A DNA stretch of 32,282 nucleotides, taken from NCBI GenBank assembly GCA_020832925.1, contig JAJHRF010000019.1, positions 1 to 32,282 on the forward strand, in the 5' to 3' direction. The stretch is from Desulfurococcaceae archaeon. Its GTDB lineage: Archaea; Thermoproteota; Thermoprotei_A; Sulfolobales; Ignisphaeraceae. Shown one piece after another: positions 10,898 through 32,282 of the stretch (position 1 is its first letter; every line of letters begins with the position of its first letter). Below the pieces are notes generated by a model. That model was not told where the DNA came from. It ran no database searches and saw only the letters and a list, made by a program, of their open reading frames with translations. A program made the position numbers and the translations under genes.

Positions 10898-10958
10898 TAC
10901 TGAACCCGAGGATATTCTATATTGTAATACTGTGGTAATGTTTTTGATGAGGATCTCT

Positions 10959-14015: not shown

Positions 14016-14248
14016 GTAGGTTAGAGATTTTGAGGAGATCTCTCCTATATCTACTCCCAGCAATCTCCATAGCTATACTAGCGTTCTCTGTATACCTACT
14101 CCTAGCTTCTGTCGGCTATATGGAGAGAGGTTTTGTAGGAACATCGCTTCTCTCAGCCTTAATAGGGTTTGCACTTCTCTCCGCATCTCTATACGTAATG
14201 AGGTTAGCAGCCTATGTCTATGCCTCTGAGAAAAGATCTGAGAGTTAA
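14012..14248 (+). CDS. Small two-helix membrane protein of MoxR operon
   Basis: A 78-aa protein with two hydrophobic helices (about residues 12-33 and 42-66), a short outside loop containing GYMERGF, and basic ends. It overlaps the previous gene by 4 nt (ATGA) and the next by 35 nt, so its reading frame is constrained by translational coupling. I recognise no family. It may be a small subunit of a membrane complex with the 364-aa protein. Confidence 0.62.
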   Translation: MSRLEILRRSLLYLLPAISIAILAFSVYLLLASVGYMERGFVGTSLLSALIGFALLSASLYVMRLAAYVYASEKRSES

Positions 14249-15707: not shown

Positions 15708-17008
15708 TAATCCCTACTAAGAGGTTTGCAGCGTATATAGCTGTAACAGCTTCTGTAGTAACGATAGCTGTGTTACTAGATCCCCAAGCGCTATTAACAG
15801 CTGTTACTATGCTAGCTATAGAGATATCGATGGCTATACATCTACAACTCTCTATAGGAGTTCTCGAGAAAATCGGTGTAGAGGTATCTATAGATAGTTC
15901 AACAGATAGAGAACCTGTTATAGTTAAGATAAAGCTTGTTAATAGAAGTATCTACCCAGTTTTCCTAGCTGAGTACAGCTTTAGTTATGAATCTATACTA
16001 AGGCTTGAGAAAGGGTGTAGAGCAGGTCTAATCTCCATACCTTCGAAAAGCTCTACAGAACTCCAGTTTGTTTTCGGAGCTAGAGTAGGTACACATAGAG
16101 TAGGTCCTCTAACAATTGTTTTAAGAGATTTCTTAGGGCTCTTCAAAACACAGCCTATAGAGATATGGAAAGGTTCTAGCTTCAAAGTTACACCATCTAT
16201 CGAAGTCGCTATCTTGAGGAAACTATACCTATACACTAGAAGTTCAGGTTTAGTTAAATCTAGAATCCCAGGTGAGGGTATAGAGTTCTACGATGTGAGA
16301 GACTATAGACCTGGAGATGAGCTTAGGAGAATTGTTTGGAGAGTATATGCATCTAGACAGAAACTAGCTGTTTGGGAAGCTGAGAAAGAGAGTTACCAAG
16401 CTATTGTATACATAGTCAACTCTTCTAAAGATATGTGGACAGGTATGCCAAAAACAACACCTGTAGAACATAGTGCAAGAATTATTGCATCTATAGCTAG
16501 ATACGCAACATCTAGAGGATACCTACAAACAGCAGTAACAGTAAACGAATGTGGTTCAAAAGTCTTCGGGGAACCAGCTTTCGGAAGACAAGGATTAACA
16601 AGAGTATTAGATGCACTAGCGAATCTAAGTATATGCCCAGAATCAGAAACACAAGTAAACTGGGATGAAACCCTGCTAAAAATACTACCTATTCTACCAA
16701 GAGAAAGAACATTCATACTCATATTCACCAAAACAACACCAAACACAGAACAACTAATAAACATCTCAACAAAACTTTCATCACTTGGACACAGAATTTA
16801 TGTAGTTGCACCCCTAATCGTTACATACGATGTAAGTAAAAAACTACCACAAAAACTAGTTGAAATATATAGAGCAAAACAGCTCGAAATAGCATCAGAA
16901 GAACTTAAAGGCATTGAAATACTTAAGAAAGTAGGGGTAAAAGTTATAGCTGTAAATCCACAGCTAGTAGCGCAAAGGATAATACAAGAAATAGAAATAA
17001 GCCTATAA
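15704..17008 (+). CDS. DUF58 domain protein of MoxR operon
   Basis: A 434-aa protein. Two N-terminal hydrophobic helices (about residues 8-45) are followed by a beta-rich immunoglobulin-like region (about 60-160). The DUF58 signature GEGIEFYDVRDYRPGD and LRRIVWR then appear at about 190-213. The C-terminal half has the layout of a von Willebrand type A fold (VYIVNSSKDMW near 245 in the place of the metal-site strand, but without a clean DxSxS). DUF58 proteins are the usual partners of MoxR ATPases. The start ATG overlaps the previous stop (ATGA). This is the last gene of the operon. Its closing codons are more A-rich than the rest. Confidence 0.88.
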   Translation: MIIPTKRFAAYIAVTASVVTIAVLLDPQALLTAVTMLAIEISMAIHLQLSIGVLEKIGVEVSIDSSTDREPVIVKIKLVNRSIYPVFLAEYSFSYESILRLEKGCRAGLISIPSKSSTELQFVFGARVGTHRVGPLTIVLRDFLGLFKTQPIEIWKGSSFKVTPSIEVAILRKLYLYTRSSGLVKSRIPGEGIEFYDVRDYRPGDELRRIVWRVYASRQKLAVWEAEKESYQAIVYIVNSSKDMWTGMPKTTPVEHSARIIASIARYATSRGYLQTAVTVNECGSKVFGEPAFGRQGLTRVLDALANLSICPESETQVNWDETLLKILPILPRERTFILIFTKTTPNTEQLINISTKLSSLGHRIYVVAPLIVTYDVSKKLPQKLVEIYRAKQLEIASEELKGIEILKKVGVKVIAVNPQLVAQRIIQEIEISL

Positions 17009-17188: not shown

Positions 17189-17851
17189 TTAATATCTACT
17201 CCTACGCAATTCTTCTACTAGTTTTCTACATATTTCTACTGCTATAACTGCGTTTTCTCCATAAGCATCTGCACCTATCTCTTTAGCGAATTTCTCTGTT
17301 AATGGTGCACCACCAACAATTACCTTAACCTTATCTCTTAAACCTTCTTTTTCTAAAGCTTCTATAACTTTCTTCATATTAATCATTGTAGATGTTAGTA
17401 ATGCACTCATACCTACGATATCAGGTTTATACTGTTTAACAGCATCAACAAATTTTTGTGGAGATACATCAACACCTAGATCAATAACTTCAAAACCATT
17501 TGCTCTAAGCATAGTTGTAACTAAGTTTTTACCAATATCATGTATATCACCCTCTACAGTACCGATAACAACTCTACCAATAGGTTTCAAAACCTCTTTC
17601 TCTCTCATAATCAAAGGTTCAAGAATATTCATAATCTCTTTAAAAATCTCAGAAGCAATAATAAGATCAGCAACAAAATAAACACCTCTTTCATACAAAT
17701 CACCAACAATTTTCATACCATCAGCAAGAACATTGATAATATCTATAGGTTTAACCCCATACTCAATAGCTTTTTTAACAAAATCAATAGTTCTATCCAA
17801 ATCAAGATTAACTAGAGATTCCTTAATTTTAACTAAAACTTCTTGAGACAT
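17189..17851 (-). CDS. Corrinoid (cobalamin)-binding methyltransferase protein
   Basis: A 221-aa methyl carrier of the MtaC/MtbC/MtmC type. It holds a corrinoid whose cobalt accepts a methyl group from one methyltransferase and gives it to another. An N-terminal four-helix cap (about residues 5-85) contains the family-typical YFVADLIIASEIF. A Rossmann-like B12-binding domain follows with the DxHxxG motif GDIHDIGKN; His104 (counted from the ATG at 17851) should be the lower cobalt ligand. The later SALLTSTM and VGGAPLT motifs also match. The ATG is chosen because GGTG lies 6 nt before it; an upstream TTG would add four residues. It lies 42 nt after the methyltransferase-like gene at 17894 and is probably co-transcribed with it. 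No reductive activase gene is visible. Confidence 0.93.
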   Translation of the reverse strand: MSQEVLVKIKESLVNLDLDRTIDFVKKAIEYGVKPIDIINVLADGMKIVGDLYERGVYFVADLIIASEIFKEIMNILEPLIMREKEVLKPIGRVVIGTVEGDIHDIGKNLVTTMLRANGFEVIDLGVDVSPQKFVDAVKQYKPDIVGMSALLTSTMINMKKVIEALEKEGLRDKVKVIVGGAPLTEKFAKEIGADAYGENAVIAVEICRKLVEELRRSRY

Positions 17852-17893
17852 AAACAACACCAACTACCAAAACAAATACACAGCAATATAAAC

Positions 17894-19180
17894 TCATCGT
17901 TTTATTGGGTATTTACCATACTCATAAGCAGTTTTAAACATTGCAACTATATTCTCCGGTGGTGTTGGAGGTTGTATATTATGTACTGGTGCTAATATAA
18001 ATCCTCCTTTCGGTGCAAATATCTCTATAAGCTTTTTGACATGTTCAATAACCTCGTTAGGTTTAGCGAATGGTAGTACGTGTTGTGTATCTACACCACC
18101 CCAGAAAGTTATCTGATCACCGAACTCTTTCTTAAGTTTCTCAGGATCCATACCTTTAGCAGATATTTGGACTGGGTTTATGATATCTACACCAATATCT
18201 ATAAACTCTTTTATTAATGGGTATATAGATCCACAACTATGGAAGAATATATATGCTCTACTTCTCTTCTTAACAATACTGAACAATTCTTCATATCTAT
18301 GTTTATAGAATTCTCTAAAAGTTTTAACATCGATTTGAGGACCTTCTTCAGTACCAAAATCATCACCAAAACCAATAACATGAACAAATTCACCAAAAAC
18401 ATCAACATACTTCTCAACATTGTATTTCACGATCTCTAACCTTATATCGAGTATAGCTTCAGCTAAAGACTTTCTAATCCTTAAATCACTAAGCCATTTA
18501 TCCCAACCTCTTACACCTTGAGCCCATTCATGAAGTGTAGCACCTTCAACAAATGCTAATGCATAAGATGTGTTTTTATATAGGTATTCTGCACGTTCTC
18601 GTAGAAGATTTAAGAATTGATCGCTAACTTTATACGAATCCCAATCGAACTTCTTTATATCGTCAACAGTTCTAGCATTGTACAAAATGTTTTTCTCTTT
18701 ATCGATGACGCCCCAGAAGTAGTACCCATTTCTAGGCATTTTAGCTAAAATTTTGTTACCTATATAGGCTATGTAATCGTTATTACTTTTAACTACTTGT
18801 ATATAAGACGGAATCTCAGCTTCATAACCTATATCATCTTCACGTCTCCATAAAATCCATTTATTGGTAATACCTTCAAAAGCTGTTCCATCACCTAGGA
18901 TATACCTCCATAAAGCATATCTTGAACCACAAGGTTCTGAAACTCTTGTAATATCTATAACATCTACATTAAATAGGTTAAGTATATCATCATGAACATC
19001 TGCACGTTGTTGAATAAAATTAATTATTCTTACGGGTTTATGAGGAAGCTTAAGAAATTTCCTTAACTCAATATATGGAATAACATGGATACCCGAAGAA
19101 TCTGTTCCTCCAAGATCTATTGGAACTCTATCCGGTTCTTCATGTTTTAATGCGATTAACACTCTTTCTCTTGGATTCAT
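17894..19180 (-). CDS. UroD-superfamily corrinoid methyltransferase-like protein (paralogue A)
   Basis: A 428-aa protein of the uroporphyrinogen decarboxylase/MtaA-MtbA superfamily. The start RERVLIALKHEEPDRVPID and the HSCG motif (His314, Cys316) mark the Zn-dependent methyltransferase branch rather than haem synthesis. The third Zn ligand, a Cys in MtaA, appears to be His within APVHNIQP. The corrinoid protein encoded 42 nt downstream is the natural partner, so this protein likely moves methyl groups to or from its cobalt. The substrate is unknown. The ATG at 19180 follows GGTGGT by about 4 nt; an upstream TTG would add four residues. Paralogue B (23029-24333) is closely related, and parts are identical in DNA. 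A true haem-pathway UroD is unlikely given these motifs. Confidence 0.87.
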   Translation of the reverse strand: MNPRERVLIALKHEEPDRVPIDLGGTDSSGIHVIPYIELRKFLKLPHKPVRIINFIQQRADVHDDILNLFNVDVIDITRVSEPCGSRYALWRYILGDGTAFEGITNKWILWRREDDIGYEAEIPSYIQVVKSNNDYIAYIGNKILAKMPRNGYYFWGVIDKEKNILYNARTVDDIKKFDWDSYKVSDQFLNLLRERAEYLYKNTSYALAFVEGATLHEWAQGVRGWDKWLSDLRIRKSLAEAILDIRLEIVKYNVEKYVDVFGEFVHVIGFGDDFGTEEGPQIDVKTFREFYKHRYEELFSIVKKRSRAYIFFHSCGSIYPLIKEFIDIGVDIINPVQISAKGMDPEKLKKEFGDQITFWGGVDTQHVLPFAKPNEVIEHVKKLIEIFAPKGGFILAPVHNIQPPTPPENIVAMFKTAYEYGKYPIKR

Positions 19181-19192
19181 TAATACCACCAA

Positions 19193-19729
19193 TCTTTAAT
19201 AACCTAGCTAGCTAGGTTATAACCACTTGTTATTCTGAAACAAATAAATCTAAACTAAGATCATGATCTAATAATAATATCATAGCTATTAAGACAAACC
19301 TATAGATTTTGATAGACATTGATCATAGGATTGCGCCTTTCTATACAACTTTAACTCTTTTAACAAGCTTCTCTAAATAGTTAATATTCTTAATAAGTCT
19401 TAAAATTATTTAATACAACTTCCTCCACCTATATTTGAATGCTTATCTAAGAGGATACATCTGTATTAAAGATCTAACCCCCCTTCTTACTAAACTTTTA
19501 AATATGTTTATTATCAGAATTTGTCTAAACTTTATGTAAAGATGTACAAGAAATATTATTTAAGGAATGAACTACGAGGTTATGTTATGATAATGATTAG
19601 TTTAAATATAAAAAATGAATTATAATAATCTTTTCTATCCTCATAATCAAGTTCAAGAATATTTAAAAACTAGTCTAAAAAGATACTTATCGTGGTAGTT
19701 GATGTATTGATAAAGATGAAGGTGTGTGT
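19193..19729. other. About 540-bp divergent regulatory region
   Basis: A strongly A+T-rich spacer between the leftward methyltransferase/corrinoid pair and the rightward sugar transporter operon, with no credible ORF. It holds a 22-bp palindrome at 19199-19220. At 19640-19663 lies a short stretch nearly identical to part of the corrinoid gene. Near 19657-19668 is a TATA-like AATATTTAAAAA that suits the transporter start. AAGGTG at 19719-19724 is the ribosome-binding site for the ATG at 19730. Confidence 0.5.
19199..19220. promoter_or_regulatory. Perfect 22-bp palindrome, probable operator
   Basis: The half-site ATAACCTAGCT is followed immediately by its exact reverse complement. It ends 19 bp upstream of the ATG of methyltransferase-like paralogue A. 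A plausible minus-strand TATA element (near 19241-19250) would put the transcription start in or next to it. The position fits an operator that blocks initiation. A hairpin in the leader RNA is the alternative. Confidence 0.5.
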
Positions 19730-20821
19730 ATGTCTGTAAAACCTAAGGGTATCCCCATTTCTATATTCGTAGCATCTCTAATCGTAATTGCAGTAATAGC
19801 AGGAGTTTTAGGGTATGTTTTAGCACCGAAACCTGTACCTGTAGCTCCAACAACAATTACTGTTCCAACTACAGTAACTTTGATTACCACTGTTACCCAG
19901 ACTCCAGCTCTGCCTGGTGCAGGGTTGACTATATATTGGATTGGTGGAGGAGCTGGAGACCCATTTGATGCAAGGCTATATAAAGGTGCAATGGATGCTG
20001 CTGCTCTTCTAGGAGTAAAGTTAATCTATGTTCATACCGAGTGGAATCCTGAGAAAATGGTTGATGAATTTCGTAAAGCAATAGCAGCTCGTCCTGATGG
20101 TATTGTTGTTATGGGGCATCCTGGTTATGAAGCTTTAGCACCATTATTTGAAGAAGCAGCTAAGAATGGCATACTCGTAACTTTGGCTAACGTAGATATA
20201 CCTGAATTTAGAGCAAAATACTGGTACACTGGATACGTTGGTCAAAACTTGTATCAATCTGGATATACTCTTTGTGCAACAGCTATTGAAAGATATAAAG
20301 ATGTTCTTAAATCTGGATCACGTGCAGCAATATTCTCTGGGAGTTGGGAACAACCTGCACGTGCACTCCGTGCTATAGGATGTGAAGATGCATTAAAGAA
20401 GGCAGGGTTAGTAGTTGATAGAGTTTCACATCCACCTGAAGTCTACGGTAACCCATCTGCAGGAACAACATATGTAACAGGTTACCTAGCAGCACATCCC
20501 GATGTAAAGCTGATAGTATTCGATGGTGGTGGTACTACAGCAGCGGCCGCTGATTATATGAGAGCTGCAGGTAAGAAACCTGGTGAAATAATAGTTATAG
20601 GATTCGATTTAACACCAGGATCTGTAAAAGGTATTAAGGAAGGCTATGTACAGATGGTTATAGATCAACAACCATATCTACAAGGATTTATGACAGTTTT
20701 AAACTTAGTATTGAGTAAGAAATACGGATTCCAAGGACTGTACATAGATACAGGAGGAGCAATTGTAGATAGTACTAATGTAGGACCTGTAGAGAGTTTG
20801 GTTATGGCAGGGTATCGCTAA
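19730..20821 (+). CDS. Sugar ABC transporter substrate-binding protein (RbsB-like)
   Basis: A 363-aa extracytoplasmic binding protein of the Peripla_BP_4 (ribose/galactose/autoinducer-2) class. It has an N-terminal hydrophobic anchor or signal (about residues 8-31) and a Thr/Pro/Val-rich linker (about 36-62), as archaeal surface binding proteins often have. Two alternating alpha/beta lobes follow, beginning GLTIYWIGGGAGDPFDARLY. The ARPDGIVVMGHP and VIGFDLTPGSVKGIKEGY segments are class-typical. The start is the ATG at 19730, 5 nt after AAGGTG; a GTG at 19724 is less likely. First gene of the transporter operon, 90 nt before the ATPase gene. The ligand is probably a sugar released from the glycosides handled by the neighbouring enzymes, rhamnose or a derivative being the natural guess. 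Confidence 0.9.
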   Translation: MSVKPKGIPISIFVASLIVIAVIAGVLGYVLAPKPVPVAPTTITVPTTVTLITTVTQTPALPGAGLTIYWIGGGAGDPFDARLYKGAMDAAALLGVKLIYVHTEWNPEKMVDEFRKAIAARPDGIVVMGHPGYEALAPLFEEAAKNGILVTLANVDIPEFRAKYWYTGYVGQNLYQSGYTLCATAIERYKDVLKSGSRAAIFSGSWEQPARALRAIGCEDALKKAGLVVDRVSHPPEVYGNPSAGTTYVTGYLAAHPDVKLIVFDGGGTTAAAADYMRAAGKKPGEIIVIGFDLTPGSVKGIKEGYVQMVIDQQPYLQGFMTVLNLVLSKKYGFQGLYIDTGGAIVDSTNVGPVESLVMAGYR

Positions 20822-20911
20822 ACTCTTTCCAATTAAAGAAAGATATTCTTTTTAACTTTGTAAAAATATAGTTTTGTGATGAACAATTAAGAATCTAAAT
20901 AGGTATTTTGT

Positions 20912-21730
20912 ATGAATAGGGGGTACATTGTTGAAATGCGGAACATCGTTAAAAGATTTGGTTCTGTAGTAGCACTTAGAGGAGTAGATTTTTATGTTCA
21001 AGAGAATGAGGTTGTAGGTCTTGTTGGGGATAATGGTGCTGGTAAATCTACTCTTGTAAAAATACTGTTCGGTATTTATGCTCCAGATGAAGGAGAGATT
21101 ATTGTTAAAGGTATTAAATTCAGAAAATTGAATCCTAAACTAGCTTACGAATTAGGTATAGTTCTTGTACACCAAGAACGTATACTATGTGAGAACCACA
21201 CTATATGGAGAAACGTTTTTATGGGTAGAGAACTTACGAATAGGTTAGGATTTCTAAAAATTAGTGAGATGAAGAAGATTGCTTATGAATGCTTATCTCA
21301 ATTAGGATTAACAAGAATGCAAGTTGATACACCAGTAAAATATCTTTCAGGTGGTTATATGCAAGGTGTACAAATATCTAGAGCTCTTACATTTGATGCA
21401 GATCTAGTTATATTAGATGAACCAACAACCGCATTAAGTCTTGTAGAAACACAAAGAGTTCTTGAATACGTAAATAAGTTAAAGGATAGAGGTAAATCAT
21501 CGATATTTATAAGCCACAACATTTACCATGTATACCCTGTTGCAGATAGATTTGTAATACTAGATAGAGGTAGGGTTGTAGCAGAATTCTATAAAAAAGA
21601 TTTAACACCAGAAGATCTTGCTGAAATTATGATCTCTATAGCTAGGACAGGTAGTGTTCCAGAAAAATATCAGAAACTGAATTTAAGACTTACTTATGGG
21701 AAAGGTAGTTCTAGTAGATCAACTTTATGA
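20912..21730 (+). CDS. Sugar ABC transporter ATP-binding protein (RbsA-like, single domain)
   Basis: A 272-aa ABC ATPase that energises sugar import on the cytoplasmic side. Walker A is GDNGAGKST (about residues 39-47), the ABC signature LSGGYMQG (about 146), Walker B LVILDEPTTAL (about 165-175), and the switch His is in ISHN. The closest family pattern is RbsA/XylG/MglA (HQERILCENHTIWRNVFMGRE), but those are usually two fused ATPase domains of about 500 aa. This one has a single domain, as in the Frc-type systems, and should act as a homodimer. The permease gene starts 9 nt after its stop. Confidence 0.92.
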   Translation: MNRGYIVEMRNIVKRFGSVVALRGVDFYVQENEVVGLVGDNGAGKSTLVKILFGIYAPDEGEIIVKGIKFRKLNPKLAYELGIVLVHQERILCENHTIWRNVFMGRELTNRLGFLKISEMKKIAYECLSQLGLTRMQVDTPVKYLSGGYMQGVQISRALTFDADLVILDEPTTALSLVETQRVLEYVNKLKDRGKSSIFISHNIYHVYPVADRFVILDRGRVVAEFYKKDLTPEDLAEIMISIARTGSVPEKYQKLNLRLTYGKGSSSRSTL

Positions 21731-21739
21731 GTGGTTTAG

Positions 21740-22786
21740 ATGGTAAATATGTATAGAAACATAGGAAATACCGTTACAAGAGTGACAAAAGCGTTATCTG
21801 GGTATAAACTGCAGATCATTATAACAGCTATATTTTTATCGTTATGGTTTATCTTCTACATTATAAATCCACCAGCTATTACCAATATATTCACATACTA
21901 CTCTATTGCGAGTGTTGCTCCATTCACAATTATCCCGGCTCTAAGCTTAACGTTAATTATAATAGCTAGAGAGATAGACTTATCTTTCTCTTCAATAATG
22001 GCTTTAGGAGCTTTAGTAACTGCTTTAACATGGAAAGCATTAGGCGAAGCATCACCTCTCGGAGTATTGCTAGGTTTGTTAGCAGGGTTAGGAGCAGGCT
22101 TGCTGAATGGGGTATTGATATGCAAGTTAGGTATACCATCATTAATTGCGACAATAGGTACGATGTTTCTATGGAGAGGGGTAGTACTAGTTGTAACACA
22201 AGGATTTAGTATTCCTTTAGGAGAGTACAGAGGTTCCCCTGTTTTCAATGTATTGGTGGGGAGAATATATGGAATCCCAGCCCATTTCCTATGGGCTATA
22301 GGGTTAGCTATAGTATTCTGGGTTATTCTGAATAGACATAAGTTTGGTGCATACATATACTATGTAGGCGATAATCGTATAGGAGCTCAAATGGTTGGAA
22401 TAAACGTCCATAGAGTACTAATATCTTTATATGCTATACACGGCGTTATAGCAGCTTTCGCAGGAATAGTAGATACACTCGAAATGGCAACATTTTGGCC
22501 AACCCTAGGAGATATCTATATGCTAAAATCTGTAGCAGCAGTTGTAGTTGGAGGAACACCTGTTACAGGTGGAGTAGGTACAATCTACGGAACTTTCATA
22601 GGAGGACTAATACTTGAGTTCATCGAGATGGGTGTACTAACGTCAGGAGTAACAGGTTTCTGGATACGGTTAGTACACGGCGTAGTTATAATAATAGCGT
22701 TAGCTGCACAAGGAATGCTTAGAAGAATAGAATTAGCTAGAGCGAGAATAATAAAAATGCTTATCGAAGAATCAGAAGAAAAGTAG
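21740..22786 (+). CDS. Sugar ABC transporter permease (RbsC-like)
   Basis: A 348-aa membrane permease of the BPD_transp_2 family. About nine to ten hydrophobic helices are visible. The family-defining REIDLSFSSIMALGA (compare GGIDLSVG in RbsC) lies near residues 76-90, and GVLICKLGIPSLIATIGTMF near 120-140 is also typical. The AVVVGGTPVTGGVGTIYGT segment near 273-290 matches the coupling region that meets the ATPase. It starts 9 nt after the ATPase gene, so the two are translationally linked. It completes a three-gene import system. The downstream gene is on the opposite strand, 242 bp away. Confidence 0.92.
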   Translation: MVNMYRNIGNTVTRVTKALSGYKLQIIITAIFLSLWFIFYIINPPAITNIFTYYSIASVAPFTIIPALSLTLIIIAREIDLSFSSIMALGALVTALTWKALGEASPLGVLLGLLAGLGAGLLNGVLICKLGIPSLIATIGTMFLWRGVVLVVTQGFSIPLGEYRGSPVFNVLVGRIYGIPAHFLWAIGLAIVFWVILNRHKFGAYIYYVGDNRIGAQMVGINVHRVLISLYAIHGVIAAFAGIVDTLEMATFWPTLGDIYMLKSVAAVVVGGTPVTGGVGTIYGTFIGGLILEFIEMGVLTSGVTGFWIRLVHGVVIIIALAAQGMLRRIELARARIIKMLIEESEEK

Positions 22787-23028
22787 AGAAGCAATTGAAA
22801 TTACTCCCCATTTAAACCTATACCAAAACATCTCTCCACATAACATCACAGACAATCCTTTTAAATAAACCCCTAAATCTATATAAAATTAAATACAATA
22901 CTTTAAATCTAGAACCACCTCTTCTTATCGTTAAATGTTTTAAAATGTTTATGTTGAGAAATTCGATGTCATTTAACATGTTTATCATCATTAATACACA
23001 ACACGAACTCTACTACTCAATGAAAATA

Positions 23029-24333
23029 TTACCTAATAGGGTATTTTCCATATTCGTATGCTGTTTTAAACATTGCAACAATGTTTTGTGGTGGAACACC
23101 TGGTTGTATATTGTGTACAGATGCATATACAAATCCTCCTCTAGGTGCAAATATCTTAATCAATTTCTTAACATGATCAACAACCTCCTCTGGTTTAGCG
23201 AATGGTAGTACGTGTTGTGTATCTACACCACCACCCCAGAAAGTTATCTGATCACCGAACTCTTTCTTAAGTTTCTCAGGATCCATACCTTTAGCAGATA
23301 TCTGAACAGGATTAATAGCATCTAAACCAATATCTATAAACTCCTTTATAAATGGGTATATAGATCCACAACTATGTAGCCATGTAAACATTTTGGAATG
23401 TTTCTTAACATAACCAATAAGTTCTTCATATCTATGTTTATAGAATTCTCTAAAAGTTTTAACATCGATTTGAGGACCTTCTTCAGTACCAAGATCATCA
23501 TATCCTATAGCTGTAACCTGGACATATTCACCAATAGCACTAACAATTTTCTTGATGTTGTACATCATAATTTCGTGTATATGGTCTAGAATTGCTTCTG
23601 CTAATGGTTTTCTAATTTTTAGATCTGATAACCATTTATCCCAACCTCTAAGATTTTGACCACCAGCATCATGATAACCTCCAGGATTTCCAATGAAATT
23701 GTTTATCAATGCGTAGTCAGTGTTTTTATATAGATATTCAGCTCTTTTCCTAAGAATTTCAACAACATCATCTGCTACCTTAAATGAATCCCAATCAAAT
23801 TTCTTAACATCATCAACACTTCTAACATCTGCTAATAGAGGTTTCGATTTTCTCCATCTAACTAAACTATCGAAATAATACCCACTTCTAGGCATTATAC
23901 CAAATAATTTACCAGCTGAATAACCAGCAAAACCCTCCTCGATTTCTATAATCTCAACATATTTCGGTATCTCAACATCAACACCGTAAGGAGCTCTCCA
24001 AACATAGAATTCGTGGTCTGAAACCTCTTTTACAGAACCATCTATAGCACTAACAAATCTATATATGTATGGGTGTGGTGCTATGGGCTCCAAAACCCTA
24101 TTAATATTGATTACATCTACATGGAATAAATCTAAAATATCTTTATCAACTTCAGCAAGCTGTTGACCAATATCATTAATTCTCACAGATTTTAGGGGTA
24201 AACTTAGGTACTTTCTAAGTTCATAATATGTTTTAGCATGAATACTTGTACAAGGAGTAGCACCAAAATCAATTGGAATTCTATCAGGTTCTTCATGTCT
24301 TAAAGCAAGGACTACACGATCTCTAAACTTCAT
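23029..24333 (-). CDS. UroD-superfamily corrinoid methyltransferase-like protein (paralogue B)
   Basis: A 434-aa paralogue of the protein at 17894-19180, with the same plan: RDRVVLALRHEEPDRIPID start, HSCG Zn motif (His320, Cys322), and SVHNIQPGVPPQNI at the end with His where MtaA has its third Zn Cys. It has an extra Gly (FWGGGVDTQ) against paralogue A. The N-terminal half and the segment after YKNTDYALINN differ clearly, as expected if the substrate side has changed. GGTGGT lies 6 nt before the ATG. It has no corrinoid gene of its own, so both paralogues may share the carrier at 17189-17851, one acting as methyl-donor side and the other as acceptor side. Confidence 0.86.
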   Translation of the reverse strand: MKFRDRVVLALRHEEPDRIPIDFGATPCTSIHAKTYYELRKYLSLPLKSVRINDIGQQLAEVDKDILDLFHVDVININRVLEPIAPHPYIYRFVSAIDGSVKEVSDHEFYVWRAPYGVDVEIPKYVEIIEIEEGFAGYSAGKLFGIMPRSGYYFDSLVRWRKSKPLLADVRSVDDVKKFDWDSFKVADDVVEILRKRAEYLYKNTDYALINNFIGNPGGYHDAGGQNLRGWDKWLSDLKIRKPLAEAILDHIHEIMMYNIKKIVSAIGEYVQVTAIGYDDLGTEEGPQIDVKTFREFYKHRYEELIGYVKKHSKMFTWLHSCGSIYPFIKEFIDIGLDAINPVQISAKGMDPEKLKKEFGDQITFWGGGVDTQHVLPFAKPEEVVDHVKKLIKIFAPRGGFVYASVHNIQPGVPPQNIVAMFKTAYEYGKYPIR

Positions 24334-24522
24334 ATCTGTACCACCATACCCCTATGTGTTTATGATCGCTTCGGCATTTAAATTTTCATGAATTTTGATA
24401 ATGTTTGATTTTGGATTTAAAAATAAAAGAATAGATAGGAGGTAGAGTGTTTCAAAGGTTAAGACAAAGTGAAAATATTTTTAAAGTGTAGCTTATGTAC
24501 GTGAATTACTTGGGGTACGTAT

Positions 24523-27225
24523 ATGTTGAGGATTGAAGATCTTAGAGTAGAGTTTACTGTAAACCCTCTTGGTGTTGATGAGCCTAGGCCTAGGTTCTCC
24601 TGGATCCCTATCCATAGTGAGAGGGGTAGGAGGCAAAAAGCTTATAGAATTATTGTTGCTAGCTCTTTAGAGAATGCTTTGAGGGGTGTTGGCGATGTTT
24701 GGGATAGTGGTGTTGTTGAATCTGACGAGAACATTGTTGAATACAATGGGCCTCCGCTAAAGAGCTTTACTAGGTATTTCTGGAGGGTTAAGTGGTGGGA
24801 TGATAAGGGTAGGGAAAGTGGGTGGAGTGATGTTGCATGGTTTGAAACAGCTATACTCAACCCAGAGGAGTGGAAAGGTCAATGGATTAGTGGTGGTCAG
24901 CTTTTTAGGAAGGAGTTCTATGTTGATGGAGATATTGCCGAGGCAAGGGTGTACATATCTGGTCTAGGTTACTACGAGCTTAGAATCAATGGTGTTAGGG
25001 TAGGGGATAAAGCGCTCGACCCTCCTTGGAGTGAGTATACAAAGACTGTTTACTATAGTGTATACGATGTTACACACCTTGTTAGGAAAGGACGGAATGC
25101 TATTGTTGTTATGCTTGGTAGAGGGAGGTATGCTCAAAAGTTTCCCGGTGTGAAATACTATGGAGAACCGAAGCTACTCTTATTACTAAGAGTTAAACTA
25201 GCTGATGGTAGGGTTGTAGAGGTTTATAGCGATGAAACGTGGAGATGTTTAGAGAAAGGACCTATAATAAGCGATGATATTTACAATGGTTTTAGGTATG
25301 ACTTCAGGTTAGAGCCTATTGGATGGGATAAACCAGGTTTCGATGATTCTAATTGGAAACCTTGTACAGTTGTTGATTCTCCTGGAGGTTTTCTAAGATC
25401 TACAGCAACAATCCCAGCTACAAAAATTATGGCTGTTCTAAAGTCGAGAGAAGTTTACAGTCCTAGACCAGGTGTATATGTATTCGATTTTGGGCAGAAT
25501 ATAACTGGCTGGGTTAGGCTAAGGGTTAGAGGATCTCCGGGTACAGAGGTTAGGTTAAGATATGCCGAGGTATTAAACCCCGATGGAACTATCAATACTA
25601 AGAATCTTGGACGTGCAGAAGCAACTGATGTATTCATTCTTAGAGGTGATGGTGTAGAGATCCTCGAGCCTAAGTTTACATACCACGGTTTCAGGTATAC
25701 AGAGGTAAGCACAGCTTCAGGGTATATAGCACCTCTATCTCTAGATGATATAGAGGCTCTCGTTATCCATGCAGATCTAGAACCTATAGGATCTATAGTT
25801 ACATCGAGTAAGCTTATCAACGATATCCATAGACTCGTTATATGGAGTCTCAAAGGTAATCTAACAAACGGTATTCAAACAGATTGTCCTCAGAGAGCAG
25901 AGAGGATGGGTTGGTTAGGAGATGCATGGCTATCATCAGATTCCGCTATGCTTAATTTCAATATGGTTAGATACTATGAGAAGATAGTGCGGGATATAGT
26001 GGATTCTCAGAAAGAGGATGGGTCTATACCTGATACAGTACCTCCATACTGGAACACATACCCAGCTGATCCTGCGTGGGGAACAGCTTTCATCTACATC
26101 CCGTGGATGCTCTACATATACTACGGGGATAAGAGGATTATCGAGAAAGTCTATGAGTATGCCAAGAGGTGGTGGAGCTACCTATACTCGAAAACTAAAG
26201 ATGGTGTACTCTACTTCGGTAAATATGGGGACTGGGTACCACCTGGAAGAGTTTTCAATATACAAGACTGCCCATTTGAAATAATATCTACATGGATACT
26301 ATACAGAGATGCCAAGATTTTAAACAGTATGGCTAGAGTTCTAGGGAAACACGATGAAGCTAAATACTTCGAGGAGAAGGTAAGAGAGATAGCTAACGCT
26401 TTCAATAAAACATTTCTACACGAAGTAGAGTTATTCGGACGCAAAGTTTCTGGATACTTCTCGGTATACACTTCGCAAACAGGTACACAACTATACCTAG
26501 GATCACCAAGATTTGGAGGTTCACAAACATGTTTAGCACTACCACTAGTAGAAGATCTAGTTCCTCAGGAGAAGGTTGAAGATGTAGTTAGAGCTCTTGT
26601 TCATAGTGTAGAAGTTGATTGGGATAAACATCTGAATGTAGGGATACTAGGAGCTAAATACGTACCCGAAGCACTTGCTAGATACGGCTATCTACAGCTT
26701 GCATACGAAGCAATTACACAGGAAACATATCCAAGCTTCGGTTACTGGATTAAAGAAGGTGCAACAACACTTTGGGAGAGATGGGAGAAATTAACAGGTT
26801 CTGGTATGAATTCCCATAACCACCACATGTTCGGAAGTATAGATGCATGGTTCTATAGATGGTTAGCAGGTATACAAATACTTGAACCAGGGTTCAAAAG
26901 ATTCTCAGTAAAACCCCCGATAATCAAAGGGCTTAACCACGTATTAGCCAAGATATACACAGTTAGAGGTTTAGTACACGTTACATGGGTAAACGAAGGA
27001 GATAAACTCAAGCTGTTAATAGATGTCCCTGTAGGATCTATAGCAGAACTACATCTACCCAAGATAGCGAAGAACATCGAAGTTGTTGAAAGCGGTAAAA
27101 CTATATGGAGAGAAGGGAAGTTCACACCTACAGAAGGAATTATCTCAGCTAAAGAAGAAAAAGAAGAAATTGTTATAGAGATTGGATCAGGTAGCTATAG
27201 TTTTGAAGTAAGACTAACTACATGA
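24523..27225 (+). CDS. GH78 alpha-L-rhamnosidase
   Basis: A 900-aa glycoside hydrolase family 78 enzyme that removes terminal alpha-L-rhamnose from glycosides by inversion. Visible layout: N-terminal beta domain (NPLGVDEPRPRFSW, then YFWRVKWWDDKGRESGWSD), a carbohydrate-binding beta domain (about residues 125-300), a concanavalin-like beta region (about 310-420, FDFGQNITGWVRLRV), the (alpha/alpha)6 barrel (about 425-785) and a C-terminal beta domain (KPPIIKGLNHVLAKI). TDCPQRAERMGWLGDAW carries Asp454, the probable general acid Glu460 and Asp467. The probable general base is Glu752 in WERW. I see no signal peptide, so it should act inside the cell on imported rhamnosides. TATA-like ATTTTTAAAG near 24477; GGGGTA before the ATG. 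Confidence 0.93.
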   Translation: MLRIEDLRVEFTVNPLGVDEPRPRFSWIPIHSERGRRQKAYRIIVASSLENALRGVGDVWDSGVVESDENIVEYNGPPLKSFTRYFWRVKWWDDKGRESGWSDVAWFETAILNPEEWKGQWISGGQLFRKEFYVDGDIAEARVYISGLGYYELRINGVRVGDKALDPPWSEYTKTVYYSVYDVTHLVRKGRNAIVVMLGRGRYAQKFPGVKYYGEPKLLLLLRVKLADGRVVEVYSDETWRCLEKGPIISDDIYNGFRYDFRLEPIGWDKPGFDDSNWKPCTVVDSPGGFLRSTATIPATKIMAVLKSREVYSPRPGVYVFDFGQNITGWVRLRVRGSPGTEVRLRYAEVLNPDGTINTKNLGRAEATDVFILRGDGVEILEPKFTYHGFRYTEVSTASGYIAPLSLDDIEALVIHADLEPIGSIVTSSKLINDIHRLVIWSLKGNLTNGIQTDCPQRAERMGWLGDAWLSSDSAMLNFNMVRYYEKIVRDIVDSQKEDGSIPDTVPPYWNTYPADPAWGTAFIYIPWMLYIYYGDKRIIEKVYEYAKRWWSYLYSKTKDGVLYFGKYGDWVPPGRVFNIQDCPFEIISTWILYRDAKILNSMARVLGKHDEAKYFEEKVREIANAFNKTFLHEVELFGRKVSGYFSVYTSQTGTQLYLGSPRFGGSQTCLALPLVEDLVPQEKVEDVVRALVHSVEVDWDKHLNVGILGAKYVPEALARYGYLQLAYEAITQETYPSFGYWIKEGATTLWERWEKLTGSGMNSHNHHMFGSIDAWFYRWLAGIQILEPGFKRFSVKPPIIKGLNHVLAKIYTVRGLVHVTWVNEGDKLKLLIDVPVGSIAELHLPKIAKNIEVVESGKTIWREGKFTPTEGIISAKEEKEEIVIEIGSGSYSFEVRLTT

Positions 27226-27257
27226 TCATCCCCTGATCAAAACAACGAATTCTTTTT
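27223..27257 (+). terminator. Possible terminator after rhamnosidase gene
   Basis: TGATCA, loop TCCCC, TGATCA. The first arm starts at the rhamnosidase stop codon. A T-rich stretch (TCTTTTTCTT, about 27249-27258) follows 10-20 nt later, which is the element archaeal RNA polymerase uses to stop. The stem is only 6 bp. Confidence 0.35.
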
Positions 27258-27560
27258 CTTAATACAGCTAATAAACATTACCTAAATCCCTTCGTACCTC
27301 TACCCTCATAAAAACTTACCTCAACAACTTCTTCAAGGGTATACCTCTTAACAATTTCAAATATTACTCCTAAATCCTACACTAAGGAGCTTAACTTAAC
27401 AAAGGCTATCACAAGTTTGAAGCGATTTTCAATGCTTGTAGATATTCCTAAATGCTTTTCAAAACTATGAAATATTCTAAGTGCTATGTAAAGACTTTAA
27501 AGATAAATATTGAGAATATAAACATCTGTTACCAGTTACTTGTTTGTATAGGTACCCGAT
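27226..27560. other. 335-bp intergenic region
   Basis: Apart from the terminator-like element at its left end and a TATA-like CTTTAAAG near 27494 that would serve the next gene, I see nothing in it. There is no ORF and no RNA fold that I can support. Confidence 0.4.
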
Positions 27561-27767
27561 ATGTATGCGAAGATTAGGATTAGTAGAAAGACTTATTGGG
27601 ATAAAGTTTGCGGTTGTTGGTTTGGTAAGAATGCTGGTGGAACTTTTGGTAGCCCTTTGGAAGATTTGTATGGTCGTGAAGAGATGTTCGATGTTTGGTG
27701 ATATCCTAAACTTGTTGAAGGTGGTATACCGAATGATGATCTAGAGATTCAGCTTGTATGGCTTCAG

Positions 27768-28919
27768 GTGTTAAGGGATAGAGGTATCGATATATCAGCA
27801 CGTGGTTTAGCTGAATATTGGCTCGATTGTATACTCTATAATTGGGATGAGTATGGTCTTGCTAAAACAAATCTAATGAAGGGTTTACTACCACCTATCT
27901 CTAGTTGGTATAATAATTGGTTTAAGAATTGTATGGGGAGCCCTATAAGATCTGAAATATGGGCATGTATAGCTCCTGGAGCACCAAATATAGCTGCAAA
28001 GTATGTTTACGAAGATGCTGTTGTTGATCATGCTGGTGGTGAAGGTGTTTATGGCGAGATTTTCAATGCTGTTGTTGAATCAGCAGCTTTTGTTATAAGT
28101 GATAGAGTTAAACTAGTTGAAATAGGTTTACAAGCTATACCTGAAAATAGTTTAATAGCTAAAGCTATTAGAACAGCTTTAGATGCATACCTAAAGGGGT
28201 TGGATTGGAGAGAAGCTCGTGAACGTGTTAAAGAAGCTGTTTATAGCTCTATAGCTCAGTATGCACCTATTAACCTAGGTTTCGAAGTTATAGGGTTAGT
28301 CTACAGAGAAAGCTTCGGGGATGCTATAGCGAAGGCTGTGAATTGTGGATGGGATACTGATTGCATTGGTGCAACTGTTGGAGCTATATGGGGTGTAATA
28401 CATGGTGTAAGTAATCTCCCAGAAGAGTGGATTAAACCGTTAAGTAATAGAATAGCTGTTAGCGAAGGGATAAAGAATATACACATACTGAAAACAGTTG
28501 AAGAATTAATTGATGAAGTATGTGCTATAGGTGAGAAAGTTTTGAAGTATTTCAATGCTCCAGTCGAGATATCAGATCACGACGATTTCACTAACGCTGA
28601 AACAGTTATAAAATCTCTTGTAAAAGAAGTGAAATATCTCTGGGATATACCACCTAACAGAGTTGACTTTGATTTAACAAGTATAAAAACTTCAATAACA
28701 TATCTAGATGGACTTGCGATACTCCCAAATAAACTAAATAACTTCCTTATAGAAATTGAGAATACACGCCCAACATCGGTTACAGGTATATTAGACATCT
28801 CTACATCTTCTGGCTGGGTTTTGAGACCTGCATGTCCATGCCCAATATCTTTAGGTCCACGAGAAAAAGCTAGGTTTAAGTTTATAGTTGAAGCATCTGC
28901 AGAAGATATATACATCTAA
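27768..28919 (+). CDS. ADP-ribosylglycohydrolase-family protein, open part
   Basis: The longest uninterrupted part of the broken gene, 383 codons from a GTG. It contains HAGGEGVYGEIFNAVVESAAF and, further on, NCGWDTDCIGATVGAIWGVIHG. The Asp pair in the WDTD of that segment (residues 265 and 267 counted from the ATG at 27561) corresponds to the metal-binding DTD of ADP-ribosylglycohydrolases, which hydrolyse ADP-ribose or related N-/O-glycosidic bonds. The N-terminal Asp motif PNDD lies just before this GTG, so a protein starting here would lack part of the active site. A beta-rich tail (about 280-383) follows the catalytic domain. Large versions of this family occur in sugar-utilisation clusters of bacteria, and the setting here is similar. 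The substrate is unknown. Confidence 0.66.
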   Translation: MLRDRGIDISARGLAEYWLDCILYNWDEYGLAKTNLMKGLLPPISSWYNNWFKNCMGSPIRSEIWACIAPGAPNIAAKYVYEDAVVDHAGGEGVYGEIFNAVVESAAFVISDRVKLVEIGLQAIPENSLIAKAIRTALDAYLKGLDWREARERVKEAVYSSIAQYAPINLGFEVIGLVYRESFGDAIAKAVNCGWDTDCIGATVGAIWGVIHGVSNLPEEWIKPLSNRIAVSEGIKNIHILKTVEELIDEVCAIGEKVLKYFNAPVEISDHDDFTNAETVIKSLVKEVKYLWDIPPNRVDFDLTSIKTSITYLDGLAILPNKLNNFLIEIENTRPTSVTGILDISTSSGWVLRPACPCPISLGPREKARFKFIVEASAEDIYI

Positions 28920-28962
28920 TGAGTGTACAGCTAAGATACTTCTATACAGTAGACCTAGGGTT

Positions 28963-29496
28963 ATGAGTATCCCAATAGTTTTCGTTGGGGGATTTAGATG
29001 GCTTATTTCAGAGGTTTACCGCGAACCACTATCTCTAGATACTGTTTTCTCACTTGAGAAAGAACTGGATCTCTATATAAAAGGTGTGAAAGGTGAAGGA
29101 TGGAGAGAAGTGGCGTGGCCTGAAAACAATCTTGAGATCGAGCCGTTCTTCAACAGAAAACCGGGTGTGATATACCTTAGACACTACATATATTCACCAA
29201 GTAGAAGAAAAGTAGTTATCGGAGTACCAAACAATAGCCGCATGAAACTATGGTTAAACAATAAACTAATCCATGAAACAATTAAACCTGTACCTCTAAG
29301 ACCTAGCCCCACCAGCGATCGATCAAACTATACAGAAGCAGAACTTAGAGAAGGATGGAACCACATAATGATAAAGATAATACGCGAAAACAAACCCATA
29401 GAAGCACGCTTCATCATTGTGAGTAGCGAATGGAATAAAGGAATGCCCGATATAATTCAATGCAGGTTTCCATGGGAAGCAAGAGATAAACAATAA
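28963..29496 (+). CDS. C-terminal beta-sandwich/carbohydrate-binding-like part of the interrupted protein
   Basis: A 177-aa ORF from the ATG at 28963. The frame is open from 28888, overlapping the previous ORF by 32 nt. It begins SIPIVFVGGFRWLISE, continues with ELDLYIKG and VIYLRHYIYSPSRRKVVIGV, and ends with MKLWLNNKLIHETIK plus LREGWNHIMIKI. The LWLNNK...GWNHIMIKI pattern is that of the galactose-binding-like or accessory beta domains often attached to glycoside hydrolases (xWxNG...GxNxlxVK). No strong ribosome-binding site precedes the ATG, and the frame joins smoothly to the preceding ORF if one TA is restored. I therefore regard it as the detached C-terminus of that protein, although it could be expressed on its own. 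Confidence 0.55.
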   Translation: MSIPIVFVGGFRWLISEVYREPLSLDTVFSLEKELDLYIKGVKGEGWREVAWPENNLEIEPFFNRKPGVIYLRHYIYSPSRRKVVIGVPNNSRMKLWLNNKLIHETIKPVPLRPSPTSDRSNYTEAELREGWNHIMIKIIRENKPIEARFIIVSSEWNKGMPDIIQCRFPWEARDKQ

Positions 29497-29676
29497 AGAT
29501 TTACATAATCTACAAAAACTTTTCCTAATCACAACCTACTGCTATAGATAAAGATCATAAATTTTTCTTTTTAGATAGTAACACTTTATTGTAAATTTAA
29601 CCCAGAGCTAGGTAGTTTTTACAAAAATAAATACCCTTTTCATCAACTAGTTATTGTAGCTGTAATGGGAGTGTGT

Positions 29677-31161
29677 ATGAATGTTATTGTTGTTATGTTG
29701 GATAGTTTGAGATCTGATCATCTTGGTTGTTATGGTAATTCATGGATTAAAACACCTAATCTTGATAGATTTGCTAGTGAAGCAACTGTTTTTAGGAGAT
29801 TTTATGCTGAAGGACTACCTACACTTCCTGTTAGAACAGCTCTATTCACCGGGAGGTATACTTTACCTTATAGAGGTTGGCAAAGATTAGAACCTGACGA
29901 TATCCCTATAGCTGAGATTCTATGGGATGCAGGGTATGTTACAGCTTTAGTATCAGATACATGGCATTTACATAAACCTGGTATGGCTTATGAAAGAGGT
30001 TTCGACTACGTTATATTCATAAGAGGTCAGGAAGGTGATCCCTATATCCAGGATGCTGAGATCAGTTTAGATATATGGCATGAGAAGAATTGGTATGTAC
30101 CATCTATTGATATCTATATCCCGAGAGAACAGAATAAGCAAATGTTTATTCAGTATCTAAAGAATACTGCTTGTTGGAGAAGAAAAGATTCTTGGTTTAT
30201 TAGAAGTGATGAAGATACTTTTGTTGCGCATGTTATGAAATCTGCTTATAGTTTACTTAAGAAGATTGTTGAAGAAGATGGTAGGAAGGATAAGATATTT
30301 ATGTGGATAGATAGTTTTGATCCTCATGAACCTTGGGATCCACCAGAAGAATACTACAACCTGTATGCTCCACCTGATTACAACGGTAAACCTATTATAT
30401 GGGGTGGTGGTTTCGCTGAAGAATATACAGATGAAGAGATTAAGCATATTAGAGCTTTGTATGCTGCTGAAGTTACTGTTGTAGATAAATGGGTTGGGTG
30501 GTTCTTCGATAAAATTAAAGAGCTTGGTCTATGGGAAAACACGATGATTATAGTGTTAAGTGATCATGGAATTCCGCTAGGTGAAAACGGTATAATTAAG
30601 AAGTATTTGCCATGGCCATACGAAGTACTTTCAAAAGCTGTATTAATGATTAGGCATCCTGAAGGCGTTGGTAGAGGTAGGTATATAGATGCATGGGTTG
30701 AAACAGTAGATATAACACCTACAATACTGGATTTCCTAGGCATAGATATAACTAAAAAACGCAGTCCATGGAGTGTAAACCCATTGGAGATCCACGGAAA
30801 ATCGTTAATACCTTTAATAAGCGGTGATGTTGAGGAGGAAGAGTTTAGGGAATTCGCTATAAGTGGTCACTACAAAAGATCCTACAGTATAAGATGGAGA
30901 AACTACACATACATAACATGGCCATCTAGAGTAGAAGCTCCATATCAATGGGGTTTATATGAAGTATATAGAACTAGGATAGAGAAAACATCTCCAGAAC
31001 TATACAAAGTTGATAGAGATTACATACCGCCACCACCTAAAAACTATGATTGGAGAAAAGATGTTATAGAAAAAGAGAATATAATTGATATAGAGAAAGA
31101 TGTTGCTAAAGAGCTTGAGGTTAAACTAAGAAGAAAAATAATGCAACTACTAAAATATTAA
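29677..31161 (+). CDS. Sulfatase-fold hydrolase with Thr at the nucleophile position
   Basis: A 494-aa member of the alkaline phosphatase/sulfatase superfamily. The N-terminal metal motif is VVMLDSLRSDHLGCYGN (Asp9, counted from the ATG at 29677). The second metal site is IVLSDHGIPLGENG. The sulfatase signature (C/S)xPxR appears as TLPVR (Thr49, Pro51, Arg53) followed by TALFTGR. Cys or Ser, which is converted to formylglycine in true sulfatases, is Thr here, as in superfamily phosphodiesterases with a Thr nucleophile. Sulfate-ester, phosphodiester or phosphonate-ester cleavage are all possible. The start is the ATG 5 nt after GGGAG, not the one at 29665. No signal peptide is visible, so the site of action is cytoplasmic. 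It may remove an ester group from an imported sugar. Its position beside the rhamnosidase recalls sulfated-rhamnan pathways. Confidence 0.84.
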   Translation: MNVIVVMLDSLRSDHLGCYGNSWIKTPNLDRFASEATVFRRFYAEGLPTLPVRTALFTGRYTLPYRGWQRLEPDDIPIAEILWDAGYVTALVSDTWHLHKPGMAYERGFDYVIFIRGQEGDPYIQDAEISLDIWHEKNWYVPSIDIYIPREQNKQMFIQYLKNTACWRRKDSWFIRSDEDTFVAHVMKSAYSLLKKIVEEDGRKDKIFMWIDSFDPHEPWDPPEEYYNLYAPPDYNGKPIIWGGGFAEEYTDEEIKHIRALYAAEVTVVDKWVGWFFDKIKELGLWENTMIIVLSDHGIPLGENGIIKKYLPWPYEVLSKAVLMIRHPEGVGRGRYIDAWVETVDITPTILDFLGIDITKKRSPWSVNPLEIHGKSLIPLISGDVEEEEFREFAISGHYKRSYSIRWRNYTYITWPSRVEAPYQWGLYEVYRTRIEKTSPELYKVDRDYIPPPPKNYDWRKDVIEKENIIDIEKDVAKELEVKLRRKIMQLLKY

Positions 31162-31320
31162 ACAAGTGATTGAAGGTAGCAAATTAGATGATATTAACGA
31201 TTCGTAATAGGATATAGCTATATTTTTACGAGTGTTGTGTTGGAGTTGAAGTATTTTTTAGAAATATCTAATCTAAGTATTTAAGGTTGTTCATTCTGTA
31301 AATATGTTGGTGGTTTGGGT

Positions 31321-32282
31321 ATGGTTTTTGATGTTGTATCTCTTGGTGAGATACTTGTTGAGTTTGTTAGGAAGGAGAGAGATGTTATGCATACTGTTCC
31401 AGGGGATTATGTAGGTCCTTTTCCTAGTGGTGCACCTGCTATAACTATCGATACATGTGCTAGACTTGGTTTGAGAACAGGTTTTATTGGTGTTGTTGGT
31501 GCTGATGATTTTGGTGAAATGCTTGTTGAGAGACTCAGATCTGATGGTGTTGATGTTTCAAGGATTAGAATTGATAGAGAATCTGCAACAGCTATGGCTT
31601 TTGTTGCTTATAGATCTGATGGTAGTAGGAGATTTGTATTCACATTAAAGTTCTCTGCATCTGCAAAACTATCTCCTAACGATATAGATCCTGATTATGT
31701 AGCTAGAGCAAGTGTTCTCCATGTCTCTGGATCAACAATGTATATAAGTAAACTTGCTAGAGATGCTTGTGTTAAAGCTGTTGAGGTAGCTAAGAGTAGT
31801 GGTAGAGTTGTTTCTCTAGACCCTAATATAAGGTTAGAGCTGGAGTCTATCGAGAGGATTAGGGAGATACTGGGGAGCGTAGTCAGGTATACCGATATAG
31901 TTTTATCAGGTGAAGACGAGCTTTCAATGGTTACAGCTGTAAACGATATCTATACAGCTATACGTAGAGTATTTGATTGGGGTCCAGATGTAGAGATTGT
32001 TGTTGTTAAAAGAGGTAGGAAAGGATCTCTAGCTGTTACAAGAAGTGGTGATATTGTTGAAGTACCTGCTCTACTTGTTAAAGAAGTTGATCCTACAGGT
32101 GCTGGAGATGTTTTCAACGCAGCTTTTATCTATGGATATCTAAAGAATTGGAAACTAGATAGAATCCTACTTTTCGCTAATGCTGCTGGAGCTATTAAAG
32201 TTGGGAGAGTAGGTCCTATGGAAGGACCTAGATCTTATAACGAAGTAGTTGAGTTAATCCGTGAAAAAGGTTATATGTTTTA
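31321..32282 (+). CDS. PfkB-family carbohydrate kinase (reaches window end)
   Basis: A ribokinase-family sugar kinase, 320 codons visible, ending Gly-Tyr-Met-Phe followed by TA at the window edge. Probably only the last base of the stop codon is missing. The start FDVVSLGEILVEFV and FPSGAPAITIDTCARLG are the family's substrate-binding start. VVGADDFGEMLVERL is the second signature, and DPTGAGDVFNAAFIYGY holds the anion hole GAGD with the catalytic Asp. A GGTGGTTTGGG run precedes the ATG, and a TATA-like TATTTAAG lies near 31279. Sequence alone does not separate 2-keto-3-deoxygluconate, ribose or fructose kinases. Next to a rhamnosidase, it may phosphorylate a rhamnose-derived keto-deoxy acid or another sugar from the same pathway. 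Confidence 0.92.
   Translation, partial: MVFDVVSLGEILVEFVRKERDVMHTVPGDYVGPFPSGAPAITIDTCARLGLRTGFIGVVGADDFGEMLVERLRSDGVDVSRIRIDRESATAMAFVAYRSDGSRRFVFTLKFSASAKLSPNDIDPDYVARASVLHVSGSTMYISKLARDACVKAVEVAKSSGRVVSLDPNIRLELESIERIREILGSVVRYTDIVLSGEDELSMVTAVNDIYTAIRRVFDWGPDVEIVVVKRGRKGSLAVTRSGDIVEVPALLVKEVDPTGAGDVFNAAFIYGYLKNWKLDRILLFANAAGAIKVGRVGPMEGPRSYNEVVELIREKGYMF

Follow-up and report, generated by a model that had tools for sequence, protein, structure and literature searches.

The DNA analysed here (the window) is 32,282 nucleotides long and forms a complete contig (JAJHRF010000019.1; G000:C29 in our numbering) of a 1.88-Mb, 99% complete genome belonging to Ignisphaera, a heat-loving archaeon. 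Its second half carries an island comprising a corrinoid carrier gene, two genes of a UroD-fold family that we term UROD-A (UROD-A1 and UROD-A2), an Rbs-type sugar importer, a glycoside hydrolase family 78 (GH78) alpha-L-rhamnosidase and a PfkB-family sugar kinase (Table 1), all identified against curated profiles (Pfam, NCBIfam) with scores far above chance. Contamination of the assembly is unlikely, since the UROD-A2, GH78 and corrinoid genes have orthologues of 78-87% identity in another Ignisphaera genome. A sequence-only reading of the window had proposed that the island imports rhamnosides or esterified/methylated sugars and removes their O-methyl groups onto the corrinoid. The carrier with its B12 motif, the two UroD-superfamily genes, the rhamnosidase and the kinase were all confirmed. 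The underlying idea, that a UroD-fold enzyme and a corrinoid protein may act together on an imported sugar, is partly supported, because UROD-A recurs in sugar operons, adjoins carriers, co-occurs with the corrinoid activase RACo and keeps its pairing with GH78, and because an activase and a methyl acceptor are encoded in the genome; the rhamnoside, the O-methyl ether and the demethylating direction keep the status of predictions. On balance, we think it probable, by a modest measure, that the island encodes a module which would demethylate O-methylated sugars with the help of a corrinoid; methylated rhamnosides, or polyols of a related kind, are possible substrates.

Table 1. Features of the island, in window coordinates.
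Feature	Position	Strand	Basis or remark
Corrinoid carrier, MtbC/MtgC-like	17189..17863	-	PF02607 and PF02310, DxHxxG motif
UROD-A1, UroD-fold, MtaA-like methyltransferase (predicted)	17894..19192	-	PF01208, 1e-21; H318/C320/H404
Intergenic region separating rbsB from the divergently oriented UROD-A1/corrinoid unit	19193..19723		putative regulatory role
RbsB-like sugar-binding protein	19724..20821	+	Peripla_BP_4
RbsA/XylG-type ATPase, single-domain	20912..21730	+	profile match
RbsC-type permease	21740..22786	+	BPD_transp_2
UROD-A2, second UROD-A methyltransferase (predicted)	23029..24333	-	PF01208, 5e-18
GH78 alpha-L-rhamnosidase	24523..27225	+	five Pfam domains, the full set
ADP-ribosylglycohydrolase-family gene, C-terminal part	27768..28919	+	interrupted; island membership uncertain
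Orphan 202-aa open reading frame	28888..29496	+	no family match
Alkaline-phosphatase-superfamily (sulfatase-fold) hydrolase	29665..31161	+	Thr at nucleophile position; island membership uncertain
PfkB-family sugar kinase	31315..32280	+	profile match; runs up to the contig end

By its two domains and its motif (DIHDIG, residues 106-111), the carrier is of the MtbC/MtgC type; it scores 209.3 bits against TIGR02370, slightly below the cut-off of 215.3, and is the sole intact PF02607 carrier found in its own genome. The two UROD-A proteins, 62% identical to one another, appear from their sequences to represent a widespread and distinct UroD-fold family. A sequence search of the PDB with UROD-A1 returned MtaA (4ay7) as its sole match, and the AlphaFold model (pLDDT 93.6) likewise finds its best PDB fold match in MtaA, ahead of true UroD decarboxylases. 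The description of these proteins as MtaA/MtbA-type nevertheless holds at the level of fold only: membership of the MtaA/CmuA families is rejected, as the scores (27-46 bits) lie far beneath the cut-offs of 235-400 bits (TIGR01463, NF040654) and the metal ligands differ. Aligned with MtaA, UROD-A1 places H318 and C320 at the HxC motif and H404 opposite the Cys of the last motif, positions that we take to be the zinc ligands of MtaA. Across 45 sequences H318 and H404 are invariant and C320 is nearly so; the H-x-C...C zinc site of MtaA is thus altered at its last position, and UROD-A is predicted to retain a metal site like that of MtaA, with His as the third ligand where MtaA has Cys. A HemE function was also rejected, as no HemE model matched and only MtaA-type NCBIfam models did so below an E-value of 0.001. 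Similarly, UROD-A1 gave no CdmB match in a phmmer search and is excluded from the CdmB/MtvB/OdmB clade and from CdmB-type dehalogenases; a different group of Ignisphaera UroD-fold paralogues matches CdmB at 9e-66.

The gene inventory, the conserved partnerships, the co-occurrence with the activase and the fold can be read directly from the data. A scan of species genomes, from which 80 loci were retained across several bacterial phyla and the archaea, placed UROD-A within sugar-import and sugar-kinase operons of several bacterial phyla, some of which also carry an isomerase alongside an FGGY kinase (e.g., L219, L241, L268). In L241 and its relatives the order is LacI-RbsB-RbsA-RbsC-UROD-A-UroD-FucI-aldolase-FGGY kinase, and in Desulfosporosinus (L268) it is ROK-RbsC-RbsA-RbsB-UROD-A-corrinoid-FGGY, with a xylose-isomerase-like gene upstream; an annotated Chloroflexota plasmid offers like surroundings. 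Rbs-type importer genes were enriched near bacterial UROD-A genes (34/410 near vs. 1/143 far, p=3e-4), and the pooled importer and pooled sugar tests were both significant against the internal control, which is small and against which the single neighbour categories FGGY, FucI, SDR and LacI showed no significance. The importer of the window belongs to this setting. Its three components are roughly 40-55% identical to those of six bacterial UROD-A operons, and no fetched locus outside such operons matches them better, although the fetched loci were gathered through UROD-A and the search is biased in that respect. The sequence-only reading had called the importer a full RbsABC system; all three components are indeed present, but RbsA (272 aa) has one ATPase domain in place of the usual two and so departs from the double-domain RbsABC (CUT2) pattern. 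The PDB relatives of RbsB include several sugar-binding proteins and do not narrow its substrate, and its weak match to a rhizopine-binding model (84 bits vs. a cut-off of 420) is a hint only.

Within the archaea, the divergent GH78/UROD-A2 pair is kept in a second Ignisphaera species (L060) at 86-87% identity (87% for UROD-A2 itself), where the corrinoid gene then follows, and in a third (L093) some 4 kb separate a GH78 gene from one for UROD-A. Other UROD-A genes adjoin peptide/sugar-type ATP-binding cassette importers together with GH42-like, DUF2139, GH3-like (a label assigned by eye) or arabinose-isomerase-like genes, and in two further loci of the same phylum (L176, L177) UROD-A is accompanied by genes for a ROK kinase and for a mannosidase-like GH2 enzyme. 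The link to corrinoid chemistry is likewise recurrent. Of 88 loci, 14 have a carrier gene no more than four genes away from UROD-A, a state that changes at least 12 times on the tree; UROD-A, corrinoid and RACo genes are adjacent in a KSB1 locus (L234) and form a single run in a Thermoproteales archaeon (L178), and one locus (L167) pairs UROD-A with the corrinoid gene alone. RACo itself was present in 46 of 49 mostly bacterial UROD-A genomes vs. 1 of 14 control genomes, and in a Thermoproteota sample in 23/23 strict UROD-A genomes vs. 110/375 others (p=3e-12), counts that are phylogenetically clustered, such that the p-values overstate independence.

The activase and methyl acceptor, correctly described as being out of view in the island, both exist elsewhere in the genome. 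RACo shares a cluster (L187, G000:C22:15000-34900) with CdhE, CdhD, CdhC, CdhB, CdhA and CooC, so that all five subunits (CdhA-E) of an archaeal carbon monoxide dehydrogenase/acetyl-CoA synthase (CODH/ACS) are encoded there; CODH/ACS homologues were also typed in L094. FwdABC, Ftr and Mch are clustered (L190, G000:C59:8000-21599), and a third contig encodes a methyltransferase of the MtrH family, which takes in MtoA, the methyl-corrinoid:tetrahydromethanopterin methyltransferase of Methermicoccus (PMC8630106). All four components of a corrinoid methyltransferase system (carrier, candidate methyltransferase I, MtrH-family protein and RACo) are consequently encoded, with partial linkage. About 10 kb from the CODH/ACS cluster, on the same contig, lie genes for a rhamnulokinase-like FGGY kinase (492 bits vs. 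a cut-off of 528), a fucose-isomerase-fold protein and an aldolase fragment (L055).

From this inventory we infer the substrate, the direction of methyl transfer, the metal and all flux steps of the following scheme. GH78 would free terminal rhamnosyl units and RbsABC would take up the (methylated) sugar. The two UROD-A proteins would act as methyltransferase I, their metal site binding methoxy or hydroxy oxygens, and transfer the methyl group to Co(I) of the carrier, which RACo would reactivate. The MtrH-family protein could then pass the methyl on to tetrahydromethanopterin, from which CODH/ACS would convert it to acetyl-CoA or Mch, Ftr and Fwd would oxidise it to CO2. The demethylated sugar would enter kinase/isomerase/aldolase catabolism through the PfkB kinase of the island and the three genes of L055. 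The genes that point to a rhamnoside as the substrate are those for GH78 and the rhamnulokinase-like protein. Such wiring would be close to what acetogens and Archaeoglobus have, because the genome carries an archaeal CODH/ACS; a demethylation system outside methanogens and acetogens, as originally put forward, would accordingly be so by taxonomy but acetogen-like in its wiring. One published study called hot-spring Ignisphaera assemblies fermentative, and its Wood-Ljungdahl test included a screen for the bacterial marker Fhs (PMC8579995). Fhs being a bacterial marker, such a screen would not reveal an archaeal-type pathway.

A number of observations weigh against this interpretation. No corrinoid gene lies near UROD-A in 74 of the 88 loci, and RACo is not rare in every group, as it occurs in 75 of 140 genomes (54%) of the bacterial class to which G460 belongs. 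The closest orthologue of UROD-A1 (L076) adjoins an isoaspartyl-peptidase-like gene and no sugar genes, and two Thermofilaceae loci (L171, L175) also have no sugar genes beside UROD-A. C320 is replaced by Asp in one UROD-A subclade, and the ADP-ribosylglycohydrolase gene of the island is broken. On the side of the methyl acceptor, MTHFR was not found in the genome (Mer and Mtd lay outside that search), and the Ignisphaera genome G009 has UROD-A and RACo and no Mch, for which reason its acceptor may differ; a second near-complete genome of the genus likewise has no Mch. The scarcity of adjacent corrinoid genes and the 54% background of RACo are what might be expected if UROD-A were some other sugar enzyme (a lyase, decarboxylase or isomerase) linked to corrinoid and activase genes through a shared anaerobic lifestyle. 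We consider this unlikely in light of the presence of RACo in 46/49 and 23/23 UROD-A genomes, the repeated adjacency to carrier and activase and the MtaA-like metal site. Still less credible is a coincidental neighbourhood, in which unconnected genes for sugar use and for methyl transfer lie together in a region undergoing decay, a view to which the interrupted ADP-ribosylglycohydrolase gene and the disrupted UroD paralogues found on other parts of the chromosome lend something; we give it very little weight, as the divergent GH78/UROD-A2 pair is kept in a second species and the pairing of importer and UROD-A crosses domains.

Other accounts accept the corrinoid chemistry and change the role of UROD-A. 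Plant glycosides are frequent substrates of GH78 enzymes, a fact that would suit a UROD-A that demethylates methoxylated aromatic aglycones, freed for instance by GH78, in the manner of MtvB or MtoB, with an importer that handles only rhamnose. Although O-demethylases with a UroD fold that act on aromatics have been described (PMC13222342), we find this improbable: the CdmB/MtvB clade, acting on aromatics and haloalkanes, is a separate family represented in Ignisphaera by another paralogue group, and bacterial UROD-A operons have no GH78 yet retain sugar importers, isomerases and kinases. That MtaA is the closest PDB match by both fold and sequence would fit a methyltransferase II that transfers methyl from the carrier onto coenzyme M, homocysteine or a comparable thiol, in which case the primary demethylase would lie elsewhere. 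This too we judge quite improbable, given scores (27-46 bits) that fall well short of the 235 bits set for MtaA/CmuA, an invariant His where a Cys would complete a thiol-type zinc site, the Asp at the HxC Cys in one subclade, the MtrH-family methyltransferase II already in the genome and the linkage to sugar operons, which a general methyltransferase II would leave unexplained.

The remaining genes of the window are less readily assigned to the demethylation module. The ADP-ribosylglycohydrolase-family gene does match that family, but an in-frame TGA at 27699 cuts off an N-terminal segment that is found upstream with the frame unchanged (whole gene, window 27227-28919), and it is a pseudogene or the product of a sequencing error. 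The open reading frame at 28888-29496 matched none of the curated profiles. Sulfatases require Cys or Ser at the nucleophile position for formylglycine. The sulfatase-fold hydrolase has the fold claimed for it but not that residue, and because Thr (residue 53, TLPVR) stands there, a phospho- or other ester hydrolase is more likely. Upstream of the island, positions 10932-17008 encode a MoxR-type ATPase and, after it, membrane proteins and one DUF58-like protein (labels by eye), apparently a separate operon.

Related genes are scattered through Ignisphaera. Corrinoid-carrier and UroD-fold genes that have degenerated and contain in-frame stops (L054, G000:C51; L053, G000:C36; L087) suggest that methyltransferase systems have been gained and lost repeatedly within the genus. 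Recoding of the stops in the broken UroD paralogues, as pyrrolysine or otherwise, was rejected; TAG, TGA and others are mixed, and for that reason ordinary decay is the simpler explanation. In two other species (L067, L069) a carrier adjoins a GH35 beta-galactosidase and a raffinose-synthase-family protein, another pairing of carrier and sugar genes, with no UroD gene within the fetched stretch. In several species (L073, L079, L085, L090) a carrier clusters with an MttB-family methyltransferase and an amino-acid-type permease, probably a separate quaternary-amine demethylation system. CdmB-type UroD-fold genes occur in L057, L064, L070, L082, L074, L075, L077 and L081, several of them adjoining carriers; those of L057 and L070 lie near methanofuran-type biosynthesis genes, and in other species such genes adjoin both the carrier and the CdmB-type gene. 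CdmB groups with the O-demethylases MtvB, OdmB and VdmB, and the accessible part of that report names Asgard archaea, not Thermoproteota (PMC13222342).

Many glycans and cyclitols of plants, algae and bacteria carry O-methyl caps, which block their degradation. In the open literature, subscription journals lying outside our coverage, no corrinoid enzyme is described for the anaerobic removal of methyl groups from sugars, and the recurrence of this gene partnership in distant bacteria and archaea points to an unrecognised oxygen-free route for methylated sugars. The broader proposition, which to us hangs evenly in the balance, is that UROD-A constitutes a hitherto unrecognised kind of O-demethylase, dependent on a metal and a corrinoid, which acts on methylated carbohydrates or polyols, occurs across archaea and many anaerobic bacterial phyla and feeds sugar methyl groups into the Wood-Ljungdahl pathway, and that a crenarchaeon uses sugar methyls much as an acetogen would. 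If true, this would account for a large family whose sole annotation is "uroporphyrinogen decarboxylase family" and would connect the use of carbohydrates with one-carbon metabolism in many anaerobes not yet cultured; a crenarchaeal genus would also join the organisms that channel methyl groups into CODH/ACS.

Among known systems, the closest parallel is the methoxydotrophy of Methermicoccus (MtoA, MtoB, MtoC, MtoD), with related genes in Archaeoglobus (PMC8630106, PMC8359953). It shares a methyltransferase I, a corrinoid protein, an MtrH-family methyltransferase II and an activase, with tetrahydromethanopterin as the acceptor, as would be the case here; unlike MtoB, which resembles Moorella MtvB and has methoxylated aromatics as its substrates, UROD-A is a different UroD-fold family tied to sugar import, and the MtrH-family and activase genes lie on other contigs. 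MtvB, OdmB and VdmB and the chloromethane dehalogenase CdmB (PMC13222342) also combine a UroD-fold methyltransferase I (the role predicted here) with a corrinoid protein and an activase, whereas UROD-A has no CdmB sequence match, an MtaA-like metal site and a setting of sugar genes. The methylcobamide:coenzyme M methyltransferases MtaA/MtbA supply the best PDB match of UROD-A by sequence and fold and share its HxC motif, yet UROD-A falls far under the family cut-off, has His for Cys as the third metal ligand and has no context of methanogenesis. The importer, finally, has the binding protein, ATPase and permease of the CUT2 (Rbs/Xyl-type) family, and differs in its single-domain ATPase, of a subfamily common to bacterial UROD-A operons. 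Taken together, these comparisons suggest corrinoid methyl transfer applied to a new class of substrate by a distinct UroD-fold family.

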